The notes under the pieces are model-generated. The model was not told the DNA's origin. It did no database searches and saw only the letters and a list, made by a program, of their open reading frames with translations. Made by a program: the position numbers and the translations under genes. A stretch of 10,407 bases of DNA from assembly GCA_002451015.1 (NCBI GenBank), contig DKBB01000272.1, positions 1 through 10,407 on the forward strand, written 5' to 3'. The stretch is from Acidobacteria bacterium UBA6911. Lineage in GTDB: Bacteria; Acidobacteriota; UBA6911. Below are positions 3,918 through 10,407 of the stretch, piece by piece; the first letter of the stretch is position 1, and each line of letters begins with the position of its first letter.

Positions 3918-5165
3918 ATGATGCCCCCCAATATAAAAGCGTCGTGCGCGGCTGTGAAACGTGCGGATAAGCCGGAATCCCCTTTATTTTCCTATGTGCA
4001 CGGAGATGAAAGCCGCAGGAGTGCGCCGGGAGGAATTTTCCTGACCGGAGGGACCGGTTTCCTGGGATGCGAACTGGTCGCGCGCTTTCTCGCACGCGGC
4101 GGGGATGAGCCGATTTACATCCTGATTCGCGCTCGCAGCAGAGCGGAGGCGCGCAAGCGCTTCCACTCATTGTACAACTCCCCCGGACTGCCCTGGCCGG
4201 ATTCGTATCGAAAGCGTATTCGACCGCTTTGGGGGGACATCTCCCTTCCATGGATGGGACTGGATCCGGATGAAATACGGAATCTTGCCGGCCGGGTCAC
4301 GCGGATCGTACATTCTGCTGCTTCCATTAATCTGAATGCGTCCCTGCAGGAAGCCCGGCGGACGAACCTCGCAGGCGCGCGGGAAATTCTGCGACTGGCG
4401 CTGTCATGCAGGCGACTCGAGTCGCTGGCATGGATCAGTACGGCCTTCGTTGCAGGGAACCGCATAGGCTGCATTCTGGAGGGGGAGCTTCAGTGCGGAC
4501 AGAAATTCCGCAATGGGTATGAACAGTCCAAATTCGAAGCGGAAATTCTGGTACGTTCTTATAAATCCATTCTGCCGGTCACTGTTTTCCGGCCGAGCAT
4601 TATCGTCGGCGATTCGCGCACGGGGTATACGCGCAATTTCTCATCCATCTATTGGCCGCTTCGCCTTGTCGCTGAGGGAGAATTGCGTCGCGTGCCGGGA
4701 GATCCGCGGACACCGCTCGATCTCGTCCCTGTGAATTATGTCGCAGACGCCGTCGCGGAACTCCTGGACCGGCATCGCTCCACAGGGTTCTGCTACCAGC
4801 TTGTCGCCGGTCGGGGAGGCACGATCACGGCCCGCGAGTTCCTTGACCGTGCGATCCGCTATTTCGATCGAAGCAGGGAACCTCTCCGGTTTATCCCTCC
4901 CCGTGCGCACGCCGACTCCAGGCTGCGTGTCTTTTTTGAATACCTGACTGATTACAAACAATTCGACGATTCGGCGACCCGTACCGCCCTTCGAGGGACG
5001 GGCCTTCGATGTCCCCGTATTACGGACTATCTGGACCGTCTGTTTGGTTTTTGTCAACGAACGGCGTGGGGAGGGCAAGGCGGGATCGACCAATACCGAT
5101 TTCATTCCTGGCCGGAACTCCCGATGAAAGGAGTGTCCTATGATGAATCGACTTGCAGCAACTAA
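3918..5165 (+). CDS. Extended SDR, acyl-thioester reductase-like (NAD_binding_4 family)
   Basis: A 415-residue protein. The ATG at 3918 has GGAGA (3908-3912) 5 nt upstream. The frame is open far upstream, but that part is antisense to the regulator and not credible. Residues 1-37 are an unassigned tail. The Rossmann motif TGGTGFLG is at 43-50, with R71 after the second strand suggesting NADPH. HSAASINLN (132-140) and N150 are typical of the family, ISTAFVAG (173-180) gives the catalytic Ser/Thr region, and Y201-E-Q-S-K205 is the catalytic YxxxK. VFRPSIIVGDS and PLDLVPVNYVADAV follow. This pattern is that of fatty acyl-CoA reductases and carboxylic-acid/NRPS terminal reductase domains. It stands alone, with no adenylation or carrier domain. 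Likely role: reducing an acyl-CoA or acyl-ACP to aldehyde or alcohol, or a sugar/lipid epimerase-type step. It heads the operon and overlaps the next gene by 26 nt. Confidence 0.82.
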   Translation: MMPPNIKASCAAVKRADKPESPLFSYVHGDESRRSAPGGIFLTGGTGFLGCELVARFLARGGDEPIYILIRARSRAEARKRFHSLYNSPGLPWPDSYRKRIRPLWGDISLPWMGLDPDEIRNLAGRVTRIVHSAASINLNASLQEARRTNLAGAREILRLALSCRRLESLAWISTAFVAGNRIGCILEGELQCGQKFRNGYEQSKFEAEILVRSYKSILPVTVFRPSIIVGDSRTGYTRNFSSIYWPLRLVAEGELRRVPGDPRTPLDLVPVNYVADAVAELLDRHRSTGFCYQLVAGRGGTITAREFLDRAIRYFDRSREPLRFIPPRAHADSRLRVFFEYLTDYKQFDDSATRTALRGTGLRCPRITDYLDRLFGFCQRTAWGGQGGIDQYRFHSWPELPMKGVSYDESTCSN

Positions 5166-6384
5166 AGGTTCGATGTTCGTTGAAGTTGAGCCGGAAACCG
5201 GTGCATTGGGGGTTGAGGGTTTTCCGGACGAAAAGAAAGAAAGAAGCCTCGCTCCGATCCTGGAACGCCCGGTCTTTGATCGGCTGATATTCGCGCAATG
5301 CTGGGAGGATCCCCGCATGGATGCCGAATCGCTCCGTTTGAAGCCCGGTAAATCAGCGCTGGTTGTGACCTCGGGAGGCTGTACGGCCCTGTCGCTGGCA
5401 CTTTTTCGACCGGACCGGATTTTCGCTGTCGATTTGAATGCCGCCCAGAGCAGCCTGCTCCATCTGAAGATTGCCGGAGCGAAGTGTCTGACCCACCCCG
5501 AGTATCTCGAATTCCTCGGAATCCGCCCTTCCGAACGGCGCAGCCGTCTCTATATGCGGTGTCGCGCAGCGCTGCCTCCCGAAGCAGCGGCCTACTGGGA
5601 CGCGCACCGGGATCTCATTGAAGAGGGCATATCGCGAACGGGGCGTTACGAAAAGTACCTGGATCTATTCCGCCGCCTCCTGAACCTAATCGAGGGACGC
5701 CGGAAGGTCCGACAGCTGTTTGAGCCCCGTTCCCTGGAAGATCGGCGGCGATTCTACGAGGATCATTGGAATACGCGCCTCTGGCGGCTCTGCTTCCGCC
5801 TTTTCTTTTCACGCCCCGTATTGGGAGCCATGGGGCTCGATCGCAGTTTCTTCACTTATGTGGAAGGCATCGAAAGCTTCGGAGACCACTTTCTCGGCCT
5901 GACCCGGCATGCCCTGGTGGACTTGCCGCCTCGAGAGAATTATTTCACTGCTCAAATTTGCCTTGGGGGCTATCTGGACGAGGAAACAATGCCCCCTTAC
6001 CTGCTGGCTGAAAACTTTCAAACGCTACAATCCGCGGTCGATGCCATCGAAGTCAAAACCATGGAACTTGGTGCGTTCCTTGCCCGAATGCCTGAAGGCT
6101 CCATCGACGCATTCGCCTACTCGAACATTTTCGAATGGATGCCTTCCGATTTATTCGAGACGTGTCTGCGTCAGACGCACCGTGTGGCGCGGCCCGATGC
6201 GCGCCTCTGTTACCGGAATCTGCTCGTTCGGCGTCGGACACCGTCGGCTCTTTCCTCTCTGTTCCGTTCGGAAAGCGAGCTGGCCGGTCGCCTGCTTGCC
6301 GGGGACCGGTCCTGGGTTTACTCGAACTTTGAGGTGGCTACCGTCCTGAAGACGAACAGCTCTGAATGGAGGGAGGGGCAATGA
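5140..6384 (+). CDS. DUF3419 / BtaA-like SAM:diacylglycerol 3-amino-3-carboxypropyltransferase
   Basis: A 414-residue protein. GAAAGGAG (5126-5133) lies 6 nt before the ATG at 5140, inside the end of the preceding gene. DUF3419/BtaA hallmarks are clear: FAQCWEDP (51-58), TSGGC (77-81) as SAM motif I, AVDLNAAQ (96-103), LLHLK (106-110), the central HWNTRLWR-CFRLFFSRPVLGAMG-DRSFFTYVE block, and the late YSNIFEWMPSDLFETCLRQTHRVARPDARLCYRNL segment. In betaine-lipid synthesis BtaA moves the aminocarboxypropyl group of SAM onto diacylglycerol, making diacylglyceryl homoserine, which BtaB then N-methylates. No BtaB-like gene is present here, so the product may stay unmethylated, be modified elsewhere, or be a different acceptor's adduct. 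The family is diverse, so the exact reaction is inferred. Its stop overlaps the next start (ATGA). Confidence 0.87.
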   Translation: MMNRLAATKGSMFVEVEPETGALGVEGFPDEKKERSLAPILERPVFDRLIFAQCWEDPRMDAESLRLKPGKSALVVTSGGCTALSLALFRPDRIFAVDLNAAQSSLLHLKIAGAKCLTHPEYLEFLGIRPSERRSRLYMRCRAALPPEAAAYWDAHRDLIEEGISRTGRYEKYLDLFRRLLNLIEGRRKVRQLFEPRSLEDRRRFYEDHWNTRLWRLCFRLFFSRPVLGAMGLDRSFFTYVEGIESFGDHFLGLTRHALVDLPPRENYFTAQICLGGYLDEETMPPYLLAENFQTLQSAVDAIEVKTMELGAFLARMPEGSIDAFAYSNIFEWMPSDLFETCLRQTHRVARPDARLCYRNLLVRRRTPSALSSLFRSESELAGRLLAGDRSWVYSNFEVATVLKTNSSEWREGQ

Positions 6385-7100
6385 AGATCTTTCTGTGTTG
6401 GCAATTCTTGATTCACCTCTGGACACTGGCCGGTCTGGGATTTGCCATGCTGGCGGCGCAGCATATTCTTCTGGGGAACTTCGACACCGCCGCCCGCTGG
6501 CTGCTTCTGGTGCTCGTGGTCGATCACACAGACGGCACTCTGGCGCGCCGCTACAAGGTTGGACAACGTTTGCCCGCAATCTCGGGGAAAACCCTGGACC
6601 TGATTACGGATGTCGTCGGTTTGACCTTCGTGCCCATGCTCTTCTGCTGGTGGGCCGGTGTGTTCCTGGATGGCTGGGGACGTCCCCTGCTGCTGGCGGC
6701 TGCCGTAACCTGCAGCCTCAAATATTCCATGAAGGAGCGCATCCTTGAAGAAGGCTTCAGTCGGGGGGCACCTCCTATATTCTTTTCTGTCCTGCTTTTC
6801 TGGCTGCTTGGGCTTCCGGAAGTATGGGCCACGATCTATGCGAGCGTGCTGGTTCTTCTCTGCTGGTTACCGATCCCGTACCCGATCACAAGTCTGGTCA
6901 CCACTCACTGGAAGCCGGGTTTTGAATCGCTGACCAACTACGTCAGCTTCGCAGCCATGGCTCCGGCCCTGCTATGGCTGCAGGATGCTCCCGGCATTTT
7001 CTACTGGACCCCCCTGATCATTGTGATCGCTCAGCTAGGTGTCGCGCCGGTCCTTCTGGCATTGAGGATGATTCAGCCGGGATTTCGCCGGGTTTATTGA
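6381..7100 (+). CDS. CDP-alcohol phosphatidyltransferase, phosphatidylcholine synthase (Pcs)-like
   Basis: A 239-residue integral membrane protein. I choose the ATG at 6381, which overlaps the upstream TGA as ATGA and has GGAGG (6368-6372) 8 nt ahead; an ATG at 6366 would consume that ribosome binding site. The full CDP-alcohol motif is present: D48-x-x-D51-G52-x-x-A55-R56 ... G69-x3-D73-x3-D77. The 12-residue gap between R56 and G69 is longer than the common 8 but fits Pcs-type enzymes as I recall them. Other Pcs-like features are FLIHLWTLAG at the N-terminus, LPAISGKTLD, KYSMKERILEEGFSRGAP, and LPIPYPITSL. Several hydrophobic helices follow. Pcs condenses CDP-diacylglycerol with free choline at the inner membrane. 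Here the alcohol could be choline or another amino alcohol. The neighbouring kinase could supply phosphatidic acid for CDP-diacylglycerol. Confidence 0.82.
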   Translation: MKIFLCWQFLIHLWTLAGLGFAMLAAQHILLGNFDTAARWLLLVLVVDHTDGTLARRYKVGQRLPAISGKTLDLITDVVGLTFVPMLFCWWAGVFLDGWGRPLLLAAAVTCSLKYSMKERILEEGFSRGAPPIFFSVLLFWLLGLPEVWATIYASVLVLLCWLPIPYPITSLVTTHWKPGFESLTNYVSFAAMAPALLWLQDAPGIFYWTPLIIVIAQLGVAPVLLALRMIQPGFRRVY

Positions 7101-7128
7101 GGCTTGTTTCCAATCGGGAGAATGGTTT

Positions 7129-8166
7129 ATGCGCTACATTTTCGCTTTCAGTAGCCGGGCCGGTGCTGTTCGGGTTGGATCCATAGAGCGGCTGCTCCAC
7201 GCACGTTTCCACGCACAGCGGAATGTACTTCTTCTCGATCCGCCGGACCGGTTGATCGATCTTCTTTGCCGCGCTTATGGTTCGGAGGGAGTCAGGCTGA
7301 TCGCGGTGGGTGGTGACGGAACCGTGCAACGACTGCTCGCTGCGGCGGTCCGATACGATATTCCAATCGGGATCCTTCCTTTCGGCACGGCAAACGACCT
7401 GGCCCGAGCGATCGGACTTAAGCGAAGCCTGAAAGAATGCTGTGATGTGATACGGGCCGATCACACGCGCACCATAGACCTGGTTGCGGTCAATGGAAAA
7501 CCGTTTGCAACCTGTGGCGGCCTGGGTCTCCCGTCATCGGTAGCGATCCGACACAACCGTTTTAATAATAAAGAAACCCGGCTGTCCGCTGATGGATTTC
7601 GGAGGGCCGCGTATTTCCTGGATGCGCTTGGTGCGCTGGGTCGGAGCCATCCTGTAGAAGTCCGGATCCGCAACGGCCATTGCGGATGGAGTGGCTGTGC
7701 GATGGCGGTCGTTGTCAGCAACCAGGCACGCTTTGGAGCGCTTTTCTCCGTTTCTCCTGGGGCGGTCCATGATGACGGTTTTTTTGATCTTTGTGTCATT
7801 CCCGATCCTGCAAATCCTTTCCGGGAACTGGGGATTGTGCTTCAGGCGGTGCTCGGTAAAGAAGCATTCAGGCCGCGATTTGTACAGAGCCGTCTTTGCC
7901 ATACACGCATCCTGACGGACAGAATCGTTCCTTTTTTCGGTGACGGTGAAATCCTATCCCGAGGGCGGGATTTCCAGATCGAAATCCTGCCCCGGACTGT
8001 GCGCCTTATTGTCCCGGGAGGGTCTTCTGAAAAGGAGGTTCAATCCCGCCGGTTGTCGCGGAATCTGTTTCGTTCCGGCATCCGGCATTTCAAACGTTCC
8101 GGCTCCGGGGAAACGGTCGCTGTTCCCCTTCGGAGCGAACAGAAACAACCGGTCGGGCTTTTATAA
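7129..8166 (+). CDS. Diacylglycerol / lipid kinase, DgkB-YegS-LCB5 family
   Basis: A 345-residue protein, with GGGAG (7116-7120) 8 nt before the ATG. The kinase catalytic domain shows GGDGT (61-65) for nucleotide binding and PFGTANDLARAIGL with GTAND at 86-90. The second domain has VVVSNQARFGALFSVSPGAVHDDGFFDLCVI, the usual (G)-x-P-x-A-x-x-D-D-G-x-x-D signature, and a late GDGE. The family phosphorylates diacylglycerol, sphingoid bases or other lipid alcohols at the cytoplasmic membrane face. The last 50 or so residues are basic, serine-rich and probably disordered. It lies 28 nt behind the Pcs-like gene, so it is probably cotranscribed. It could recycle diacylglycerol to phosphatidic acid or phosphorylate an operon-specific lipid; substrate cannot be read from sequence. 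Confidence 0.88.
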   Translation: MRYIFAFSSRAGAVRVGSIERLLHARFHAQRNVLLLDPPDRLIDLLCRAYGSEGVRLIAVGGDGTVQRLLAAAVRYDIPIGILPFGTANDLARAIGLKRSLKECCDVIRADHTRTIDLVAVNGKPFATCGGLGLPSSVAIRHNRFNNKETRLSADGFRRAAYFLDALGALGRSHPVEVRIRNGHCGWSGCAMAVVVSNQARFGALFSVSPGAVHDDGFFDLCVIPDPANPFRELGIVLQAVLGKEAFRPRFVQSRLCHTRILTDRIVPFFGDGEILSRGRDFQIEILPRTVRLIVPGGSSEKEVQSRRLSRNLFRSGIRHFKRSGSGETVAVPLRSEQKQPVGLL

Positions 8167-9598: not shown

Positions 9599-9993
9599 TG
9601 TTTCAATCCTCCATAGATTGATTGTTTCGGGTCACTCCATCGGCAACGGTTTTTCAATCCTGACTTGTCAGGGGCAGCCAGGCCGAAGCTCTGCTTTGGA
9701 TAGGGCGAAGCCTGATCTCGGGCATGTATCCCTCCAGACAGAGGCCTGGTTACATGCTGTTTTTGCTCTGTAAATCCTGATGAAACTGGGGCTTATTATA
9801 TGCGGACGGGGTGGGTAAGGAGAAGGGAAATCCTTTCCCAATGATCGGCAATCAATGCTAGTCTTGTTCCAATGAAGTTTTAATAATACATCCGGTCGGA
9901 AGCGGAGCGGATGCGAAAGGGAAGAGGATTGAAGACCGGCGCTTCTTTTCCCAGCCCGTACAAAGAACCGCAGGACAAGAAGGAGAGGGCAGT
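9599..9993. other. 395-bp divergent intergenic region with small palindromes
   Basis: I see no credible gene here. CCTGAC-TT-GTCAGG (9659-9672) is a perfect palindrome upstream of the small secreted protein and could be an operator. TTTCAATCCT occurs at 9601-9610 and again at 9652-9661. GGGAAA-TCC-TTTCCC (9825-9839) is a small hairpin. A weak plus-strand promoter candidate is TTGTTC (9864-9869) with AT-rich TAATAATAC downstream (9881-9889), but no hexamer pair has good spacing and consensus. The region must hold the promoter of the UGSC gene, whose AAGGAG (9980-9985) lies 8 nt before the ATG. Confidence 0.5.
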
Positions 9994-10407
9994 ATGAGAA
10001 AAATTTTTATCACATTGCTCCTAGGAGCTTCTGTCGTTATGGCGGGACAGGGTCCTTCAGGTGCGCAGTCCGCCGGGAATACGGCGGATCCTCAATTCAG
10101 GGTTCTCAGCCCGTGGGCGGAAGTGGATCCGATAACCCCCCGGGGGATCTCCCCACGGCTGAATACACTTGTGGGTAAGAAAATCGGTTTGTTCGCGAAC
10201 TTCAAGCGCGCCTCCCGGCCGATCGTTGAAGAAGTGGAAAAGCGACTGAAGGGAATGTTTCGCGATTGTGAAACCAGCTTCTTCGATTCCCGCGGAGCCA
10301 ATGTTGTCGAGACTGAAACGGAAAATCGGGAGCAATTCATCGCCTGGGCGAAAGGTGTTGATGCGGTCATCCTGGCGGTGGGCGATTGAGGGTCCTGCAC
10401 AAAGTTC
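9994..10407 (+). CDS. Exported UGSC-family selenoprotein, read through in-frame TGA; C-terminus outside window
   Basis: Conventional reading gives 131 residues ending at TGA 10387-10389. The protein before it is a UGSC-family domain: LSPWAEVDPITPRGISPRLNTL, VGKKIGLFANFKRASRPIVEEVEKRLKG (60-87), then FIAWAKGVDAVILAVGD right at the TGA. The frame continues GGG TCC TGC ACA AAG TTC, that is G-S-C-T-K-F, completing the family motif VGD-U-GSC-T. The TGA is therefore best read as selenocysteine 132, with C135 forming a U-x-x-C pair. Family members carry Sec or Cys here; their biochemical role is not established, and a redox function is inferred. An N-terminal signal peptide (MRKIFITLLLGASVVMA) predicts export, which is uncommon for this family as I know it. 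The SECIS hairpin would lie mostly past the window end. Confidence 0.85.
10387..10389 (+). other. Predicted selenocysteine codon (recoded TGA)
   Basis: This TGA sits between VGD and GSC, the defining position of the UGSC family. In bacteria recoding needs a SECIS hairpin roughly 15-40 nt downstream, bound by SelB. Only 18 nt of downstream sequence are visible, so the hairpin cannot be tested here. Confidence 0.82.

Follow-up and report, generated by a model that had tools for sequence, protein, structure and literature searches.

Structure of the locus

The window analysed here is a 10,407-nucleotide stretch of contig DKBB01000272.1, assigned to Acidobacteria bacterium UBA6911, with the gene of interest at its 3' end. 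An ATG at 9994 on the forward strand opens a frame of 131 codons that reaches an in-frame TGA at 10387-10389. The 18 bases left between this TGA and the window end continue in frame without a stop to give VGD-UGA-GSCTKF (Table 1). Translation with table 11 yields a 131-aa protein (P0001 in our relatives search), and thus standard gene calling does stop at this TGA, as the first-pass annotation had stated; the motif it described, VGD-U-GSC with GSCTKF following, is base-exact and in frame with the ATG. The comparisons below make selenocysteine (Sec) the best reading of this TGA, and judged by sequence the window holds a new member of the known UGSC family in a predicted long, exported form. Elsewhere in the window, a run of genes on one strand (3963-8166) includes possible lipid genes encoding an NAD_binding_4 reductase, a DUF3419 protein and a DAGK-type kinase, together with a CDP-alcohol phosphatidyltransferase-like protein that scores slightly below its cut-off.

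Table 1. Features at the 3' end of the window
Feature	Position	Strand	Basis
Probable ribosome-binding site AAGGAG	9980..9985	+	8 bases upstream of ATG, read from sequence
N-terminal 131 codons of long UGSC-family protein, ending at Sec codon	9994..10386	+	ORF; PF24696 31.3 bits
Probable signal peptide MRKIFITLLLGASVVMAGQGPSGAQS, ~26 codons, 3' limit estimated	9994..10071	+	By eye; 10/10 window-type relatives in hydropathy test
In-frame TGA, read as Sec132	10387..10389	+	TGA and open frame in relatives; Cys at column in four others
GSCTKF codons; U-x-x-C pair completed by Cys135	10390..10407	+	Sequence, PF24696, relatives
SECIS-like stem, initial part of 5' arm	10400..10407	+	Columns 14-21 of alignment A5

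Relatives on both sides of the UGA

The Pfam UGSC profile (PF24696, cut-off 25) scores 31.3 bits up to the TGA and 52.0 bits when the TGA is read through, in agreement with the earlier observation that the gene matches the UGSC family up to its defining residue. The NCBIfam equivalog NF041046 gives 22.6 bits before the TGA and 42.3 bits read through, below its curated cut-off of 125, which is not reached at full length either (76.0 bits for L001 and 70.3 bits for L003). The U/C-G-S-C motif of the family is present as UGA-GSC in the window and with Cys in four relatives. A protein search returned 1315 relatives; 26 among the best 120 listed were aligned, a comparison called for by the first-pass annotation, and all 26 terminate at the identical VGD. 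The 120 matches listed from a search with the full-length protein are all fragments, 384-429 residues long. At the nucleotide level, the 18 bases 3' of the TGA are identical between the window and 12 of the 27 window-type relatives; the 210 bases 5' of the TGA average 62% identity to these relatives, and in none of these is any 21-base stretch of that region matched in full (0/27, in 3-base steps).

One scan of genome contigs yielded five loci, L001 and L002 from MAGs titled Acidobacteria, L003 and L005 titled Deltaproteobacteria and L004 titled Bacteroides, with L001 77% identical to the window. VGD-TGA-GSCTKF is followed by an open frame of about 430 further codons in four of the five, giving proteins of about 560-585 residues, while L002 falls out of frame 5' of the motif. 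Cys replaces the UGA in the haloarchaea Natrinema, Haloterrigena and Halalkalicoccus and in Variovorax boronicumulans. With UGA in some relatives and Cys in others, the column therefore alternates between Sec and Cys, which is how selenoproteins are usually recognised, and the in-frame UGA of the window stands opposite Sec or Cys in its homologues, as in bacterial selenoproteins.

Expansion of UGSC copies

PF24696 matches 85 places in the genomes of these five loci (16, 28, 23, 3 and 15), and by hand count 69 of the 85 have an in-frame TGA within the matched stretch. Ten of 15 genomes in the acidobacterial family to which genome G001 belongs carry 10-28 copies, one carries a single copy and four carry none. 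Across the corresponding phylum sample, 32 of 297 genomes match; the nine with at least 10 matches are all from the family of G001, and the others have one or two copies, most of them short, at about 200 residues. A second phylum sample, that of G003, has matches in 29 of 297 genomes, four of them with at least 11; copies in the phylum samples were scored up to 11 per genome, so that top values are to be read as at least 11. These data rest largely on MAGs. Three proteins (P0206, P0224 and P0343) each lie on a contig of 6,894,879 bases, presumably one genome.

The Sec column of 84 copies (loci L027-L086) holds Sec in 63, Ser in 12, Asn and Leu in two each, Gly, Thr, Ala and Trp in one each and a gap in one, with Cys in none. 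Motif variants include UGSC, UDGC, USSC, USQC, USVC and UPGC, among others. For most copies examined the nearest relative is a copy in another genome rather than in the same one, which by sequence relationship suggests subfamilies of long standing and not a mixture of strains. Several genes adjoining paralogues were recorded: Xanthine-dehydrogenase-type molybdopterin subunits at three loci (L036 1335-3980, L040 849-3464 and L034 6668-9067) and a glycyl radical enzyme at another (L069 5066-7558).

A SECIS-like element and the selenocysteine machinery

Bacterial SECIS elements typically carry GU in the loop of a hairpin. Most of the corresponding stem would fall past the window end at 10407, and it was characterised on relatives. 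Among the 27 window-type relatives, synonymous conservation (identical codons among same-residue pairs) in the 18 codons after the UGA is 0.656, the strongest stretch of the gene against 461 other 18-codon windows (mean 0.430, maximum 0.509). A stem joining alignment columns 14-25 with 45-55 has 93.3% of cells paired, a value as high in 14 of 500 shuffles; three of its pairs are altered on both sides (as high in 2/500 shuffles), and its covariation score is reached by 27/500. Versions of the stem slid along the alignment pair only 25-55% of cells, yet themselves show one or two two-sided pairs, and a plain folding-energy test for the hairpin is weak. A further test, set up after the sequences had been inspected, looked for hairpins of at least six pairs whose 3-6 nt loop contains GU: 31 of 63 Sec copies have one, where 200 shuffles average 5.1 and never exceed 11, as do 2 of 20 non-Sec copies, where shuffles average 0.7 and 33/200 reach the observed count.

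The genomes of the five loci score 72.5-75.5 bits for tRNA-Sec in four cases and 47.1 in G004, with a cut-off of 47 that is also passed by five of 14 control genomes. Above cut-off, selB is found in three of the five against 2/14 controls, and selA in four of the five against 1/14 controls. Neither gene exceeds its cut-off in G004, despite TGA-containing UGSC copies in this genome; selA above cut-off is also absent from the 2.1 Mb genome G017, in which UGSC has 11 matches, and is present in 14 of 15 genomes of the family of G001 whether or not UGSC is. The Sec capacity of the relatives is consistent with the Sec reading and does not discriminate. In G004, titled Bacteroides sp. SM23_62, one UGSC paralogue (L065 2174-3997) has Trp, encoded by TGG, where Sec would stand.

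Two readings would dispense with Sec altogether. Standard gene calling and the mere 18 bases left in the window would suit a genuine stop codon, or a TGA that arose by mutation or sequencing error, closing a 131-residue protein or a dead fragment; this we consider highly improbable, since relatives from different genomes share the TGA and a conserved open frame beyond it, other relatives have Cys at this column and codon conservation rises 3' of it. Decoding of the UGA as an ordinary amino acid, be it Trp as in code 4 or through suppression, could draw on the one Trp codon among the 84 copies (G004), but it is scarcely credible given TGA in 63 of those copies and Cys in none, Cys at this place in other lineages, SECIS-like hairpins 3' of the UGA, Sec genes in most of the relatives' genomes and window ORFs nearby that are intact under table 11. 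By sequence comparison the UGA at 10387-10389 is therefore almost certainly decoded as Sec132, presumably directed by a hairpin that starts about 10-13 nt downstream, as seen in relatives. In the relatives, the frame stays open past the UGA, Sec and Cys alternate at its column and a SECIS-like element follows, which together support the hidden selenoprotein proposed in the first-pass annotation.

Predicted export, domain architecture and fold

A crude hydropathy test found a signal-like N-terminus in all ten window-type relatives of the first set and in 47 of 84 paralogues; the test is simple, start codons are uncertain and the N-terminus of the window itself was judged by eye. The signal peptide noted earlier is thus supported through relatives, and by the same counts an exported UGSC selenoprotein is not the rarity it had been taken for. 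The protein, about 566 residues long in L001, is very probably exported via its signal peptide. Several copies look lipoprotein-like by sequence, and some non-Sec copies appear to have RR-type, Tat-like starts.

The C-terminal domain comprises about 340 residues, has no Pfam family and in several genomes is encoded by its own gene next to UGSC. On the Paracoccus ferrooxidans plasmid pFER4 it occurs as a lone gene about 3.3 kb from selB (L126 4953-6044 and 9359-10795). A structure model (pLDDT 83.6, pTM 0.82) shows alternating alpha/beta order in the Sec domain and predicts a Rossmann- or flavodoxin-like fold for this first domain, with Sec132 starting a helix. The structural neighbours listed for the model are mixed and span residues 57-217 only, and a Trx-like fold was called likely for UGSC in the 2008 GOS study (PMC2398784).

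A paralogue with four in-frame UGAs

Five loci (L054, L085, L106, L107 and L108, in G002, G005, G015, G003 and G486, respectively) encode a lipoprotein-like UGSC paralogue in which four UGAs lie in one frame, as GFGG-UU-GC and GGH-U-[VG]-U-APFS; the five genomes come from two phylum samples. Run over 395 + 396 genomes (791), a DNA pattern that accepts a TGA, Cys or Trp codon at each of the final two sites matches exactly these five loci, with TGA at both sites each time; the reversed pattern has no match in the same genomes. The five proteins are 69-89% identical, with nucleotide changes mostly at third positions, and a hairpin with GU in its loop follows each UGA pair, giving two hairpins per gene. 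Codon conservation is 0.72-0.73 after the first pair and 0.82-0.92 after the second; set against 490 other windows (mean 0.465, maximum 0.738), the second pair lies above all and the first does not. No neighbour gene is common to the five loci. A 2026 review, in the portion available, gives one and rarely two or three Sec for prokaryotic families (PMC13188914), which a four-Sec protein would exceed.

Relation to GrdB and proposed function

GrdB and PrdB act together with a pyruvoyl subunit on glycine, betaine or D-proline, in which they reductively cleave a C-N or other C-heteroatom bond, and TrxB or TrxA genes lie near in grd operons. In profile comparison (hhalign) UGSC scores 48.0 against GrdB, compared with at most 24.2 for 266 unrelated proteins and at most 22.0 for 100 shuffles, and the alignment places Sec on Sec with U-G-[ST]-C-T common to both. 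The Sec domain thus appears, from sequence profiles, remotely related to the Sec region of the glycine reductase GrdB, a likeness that extends to nearby TrxB or TrxA genes. UGSC differs from GrdB/PrdB in that many copies are exported, many occur per genome and PF07355, the GrdB profile, is unmatched: run on the five genomes with E up to 1, it has three matches, none at a listed UGSC place. The C-terminal domain is also unlike GrdE, scoring 14.2, lower than unrelated controls, and bears no resemblance to GrdB. Genes for TrxB or CxxC TrxB-like flavoproteins are present in five of 14 annotated plasmid regions and absent from the other nine, a count that stands without a base rate for comparison; a TrxB-type gene also lies beside the short UGSC of G002.

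Taken as a whole, the data are probably best explained by an exported long UGSC selenoprotein with a GrdB-like reductase mechanism, the reductase function being one that we infer by analogy. The Sec132 selenolate would attack a small organic substrate, possibly bound or activated by the C-terminal domain, and Cys135 would resolve the selenium intermediate as a selenenylsulphide. Thioredoxin/TrxB-type donors could then re-reduce the Sec-Cys pair, with exported forms relying on another donor, of which none was seen. By the same analogy, the likeliest chemistry would be the reductive breaking of a C-N or other C-heteroatom bond, at a little short of even confidence.

A selenoprotein need not be a substrate-cleaving reductase, and the U-x-x-C motif, the TrxB and TrxA neighbours and the Trx-like fold thought likely in the GOS study, as far as its accessible text goes (PMC2398784), would all suit a general thiol oxidoreductase of disulphide or peroxide chemistry. 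We consider this unlikely, though a serious alternative, in view of the remote homology to GrdB, the modelled alpha/beta order of the Sec domain and the many divergent copies adjoining catabolic genes, which suggest differing substrates. In the expanded copies, and most of all in the four-UGA form with its UU-GC and GH-U-x-U clusters in a lipoprotein-like protein, Sec clusters might instead bind or deliver metal or selenium rather than catalyse, much as the available part of the 2026 review reports that some other Sec proteins have been proposed as metal binders (PMC13188914); the window-type protein has a single Sec and the five four-UGA loci share no neighbour gene, and we hold this role to be improbable.

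Dehalogenating bacteria offer a parallel for multi-copy UGSC, with many reductive dehalogenases per genome. Extending the GrdB-like reading to the paralogues, we tentatively suggest, at somewhat less than even confidence, that the window protein may be part of a system of Se-dependent reductases that diversified long ago and is largely exported, present in 10-28 copies per genome in some Acidobacteria and Deltaproteobacteria, each acting on a different organic substrate; one branch would be a lipoprotein carrying two clusters of Sec, four residues in all, and each cluster would have its own SECIS. The link to GrdB, the neighbouring TrxB genes and the high copy number render the function testable. 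Aconitase X can act in hydroxyproline breakdown, and genes for aconitase X and DUF126 adjoin a long UGSC-like gene on Sporomusa termitida pSPTER (L122) and Vibrio europaeus pVEu (L129); this neighbourhood is a possible lead to a UGSC substrate.

Relation to described UGSC proteins

The family itself is already known, and what merits attention is its expansion, its link to GrdB and the form with four UGAs. Among the Sec families of the GOS study, in the part available, UGSC counts 255 sequences with Sec and 21 with Cys (PMC2398784), and UGSC likewise appears as a Sec family in the accessible portions of PMC13188914, PMC9312934, PMC5029168, PMC5330540 and PMC7539508; the word UGSC is absent from the available part of PMC12013277. 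The window-type protein shares with the family (PF24696; NF041046, 'UGSC family (seleno)protein') a profile match across the Sec codon, the UGSC motif and the Sec/Cys active position, but differs in its signal peptide, its fused C-terminal domain without a Pfam family and an NF041046 score of 76.0 of 125. It probably corresponds to the UGSC-'Unknown_1' fusion of the GOS study, UGSC with a conserved domain, a match made by description rather than by sequence; export and expansion are absent from that description in the accessible text (PMC2398784). Our literature search found no description of the expansion or of a four-Sec member, and we make no claim that either is unpublished.

Because database entries are cut at the UGA (26/26 aligned, with 384-429-residue pieces among the matches listed), a layer of Se-dependent, partly extracytoplasmic chemistry may be hidden in public genomes.

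On the conjugative IncP plasmid p2-T1 of Acidovorax sp. T1, a long UGSC gene (L111 8001-9536) contains an in-frame TGA, reading SGD-U-GSCTSW, where the annotation has just a 96-aa hypothetical protein.
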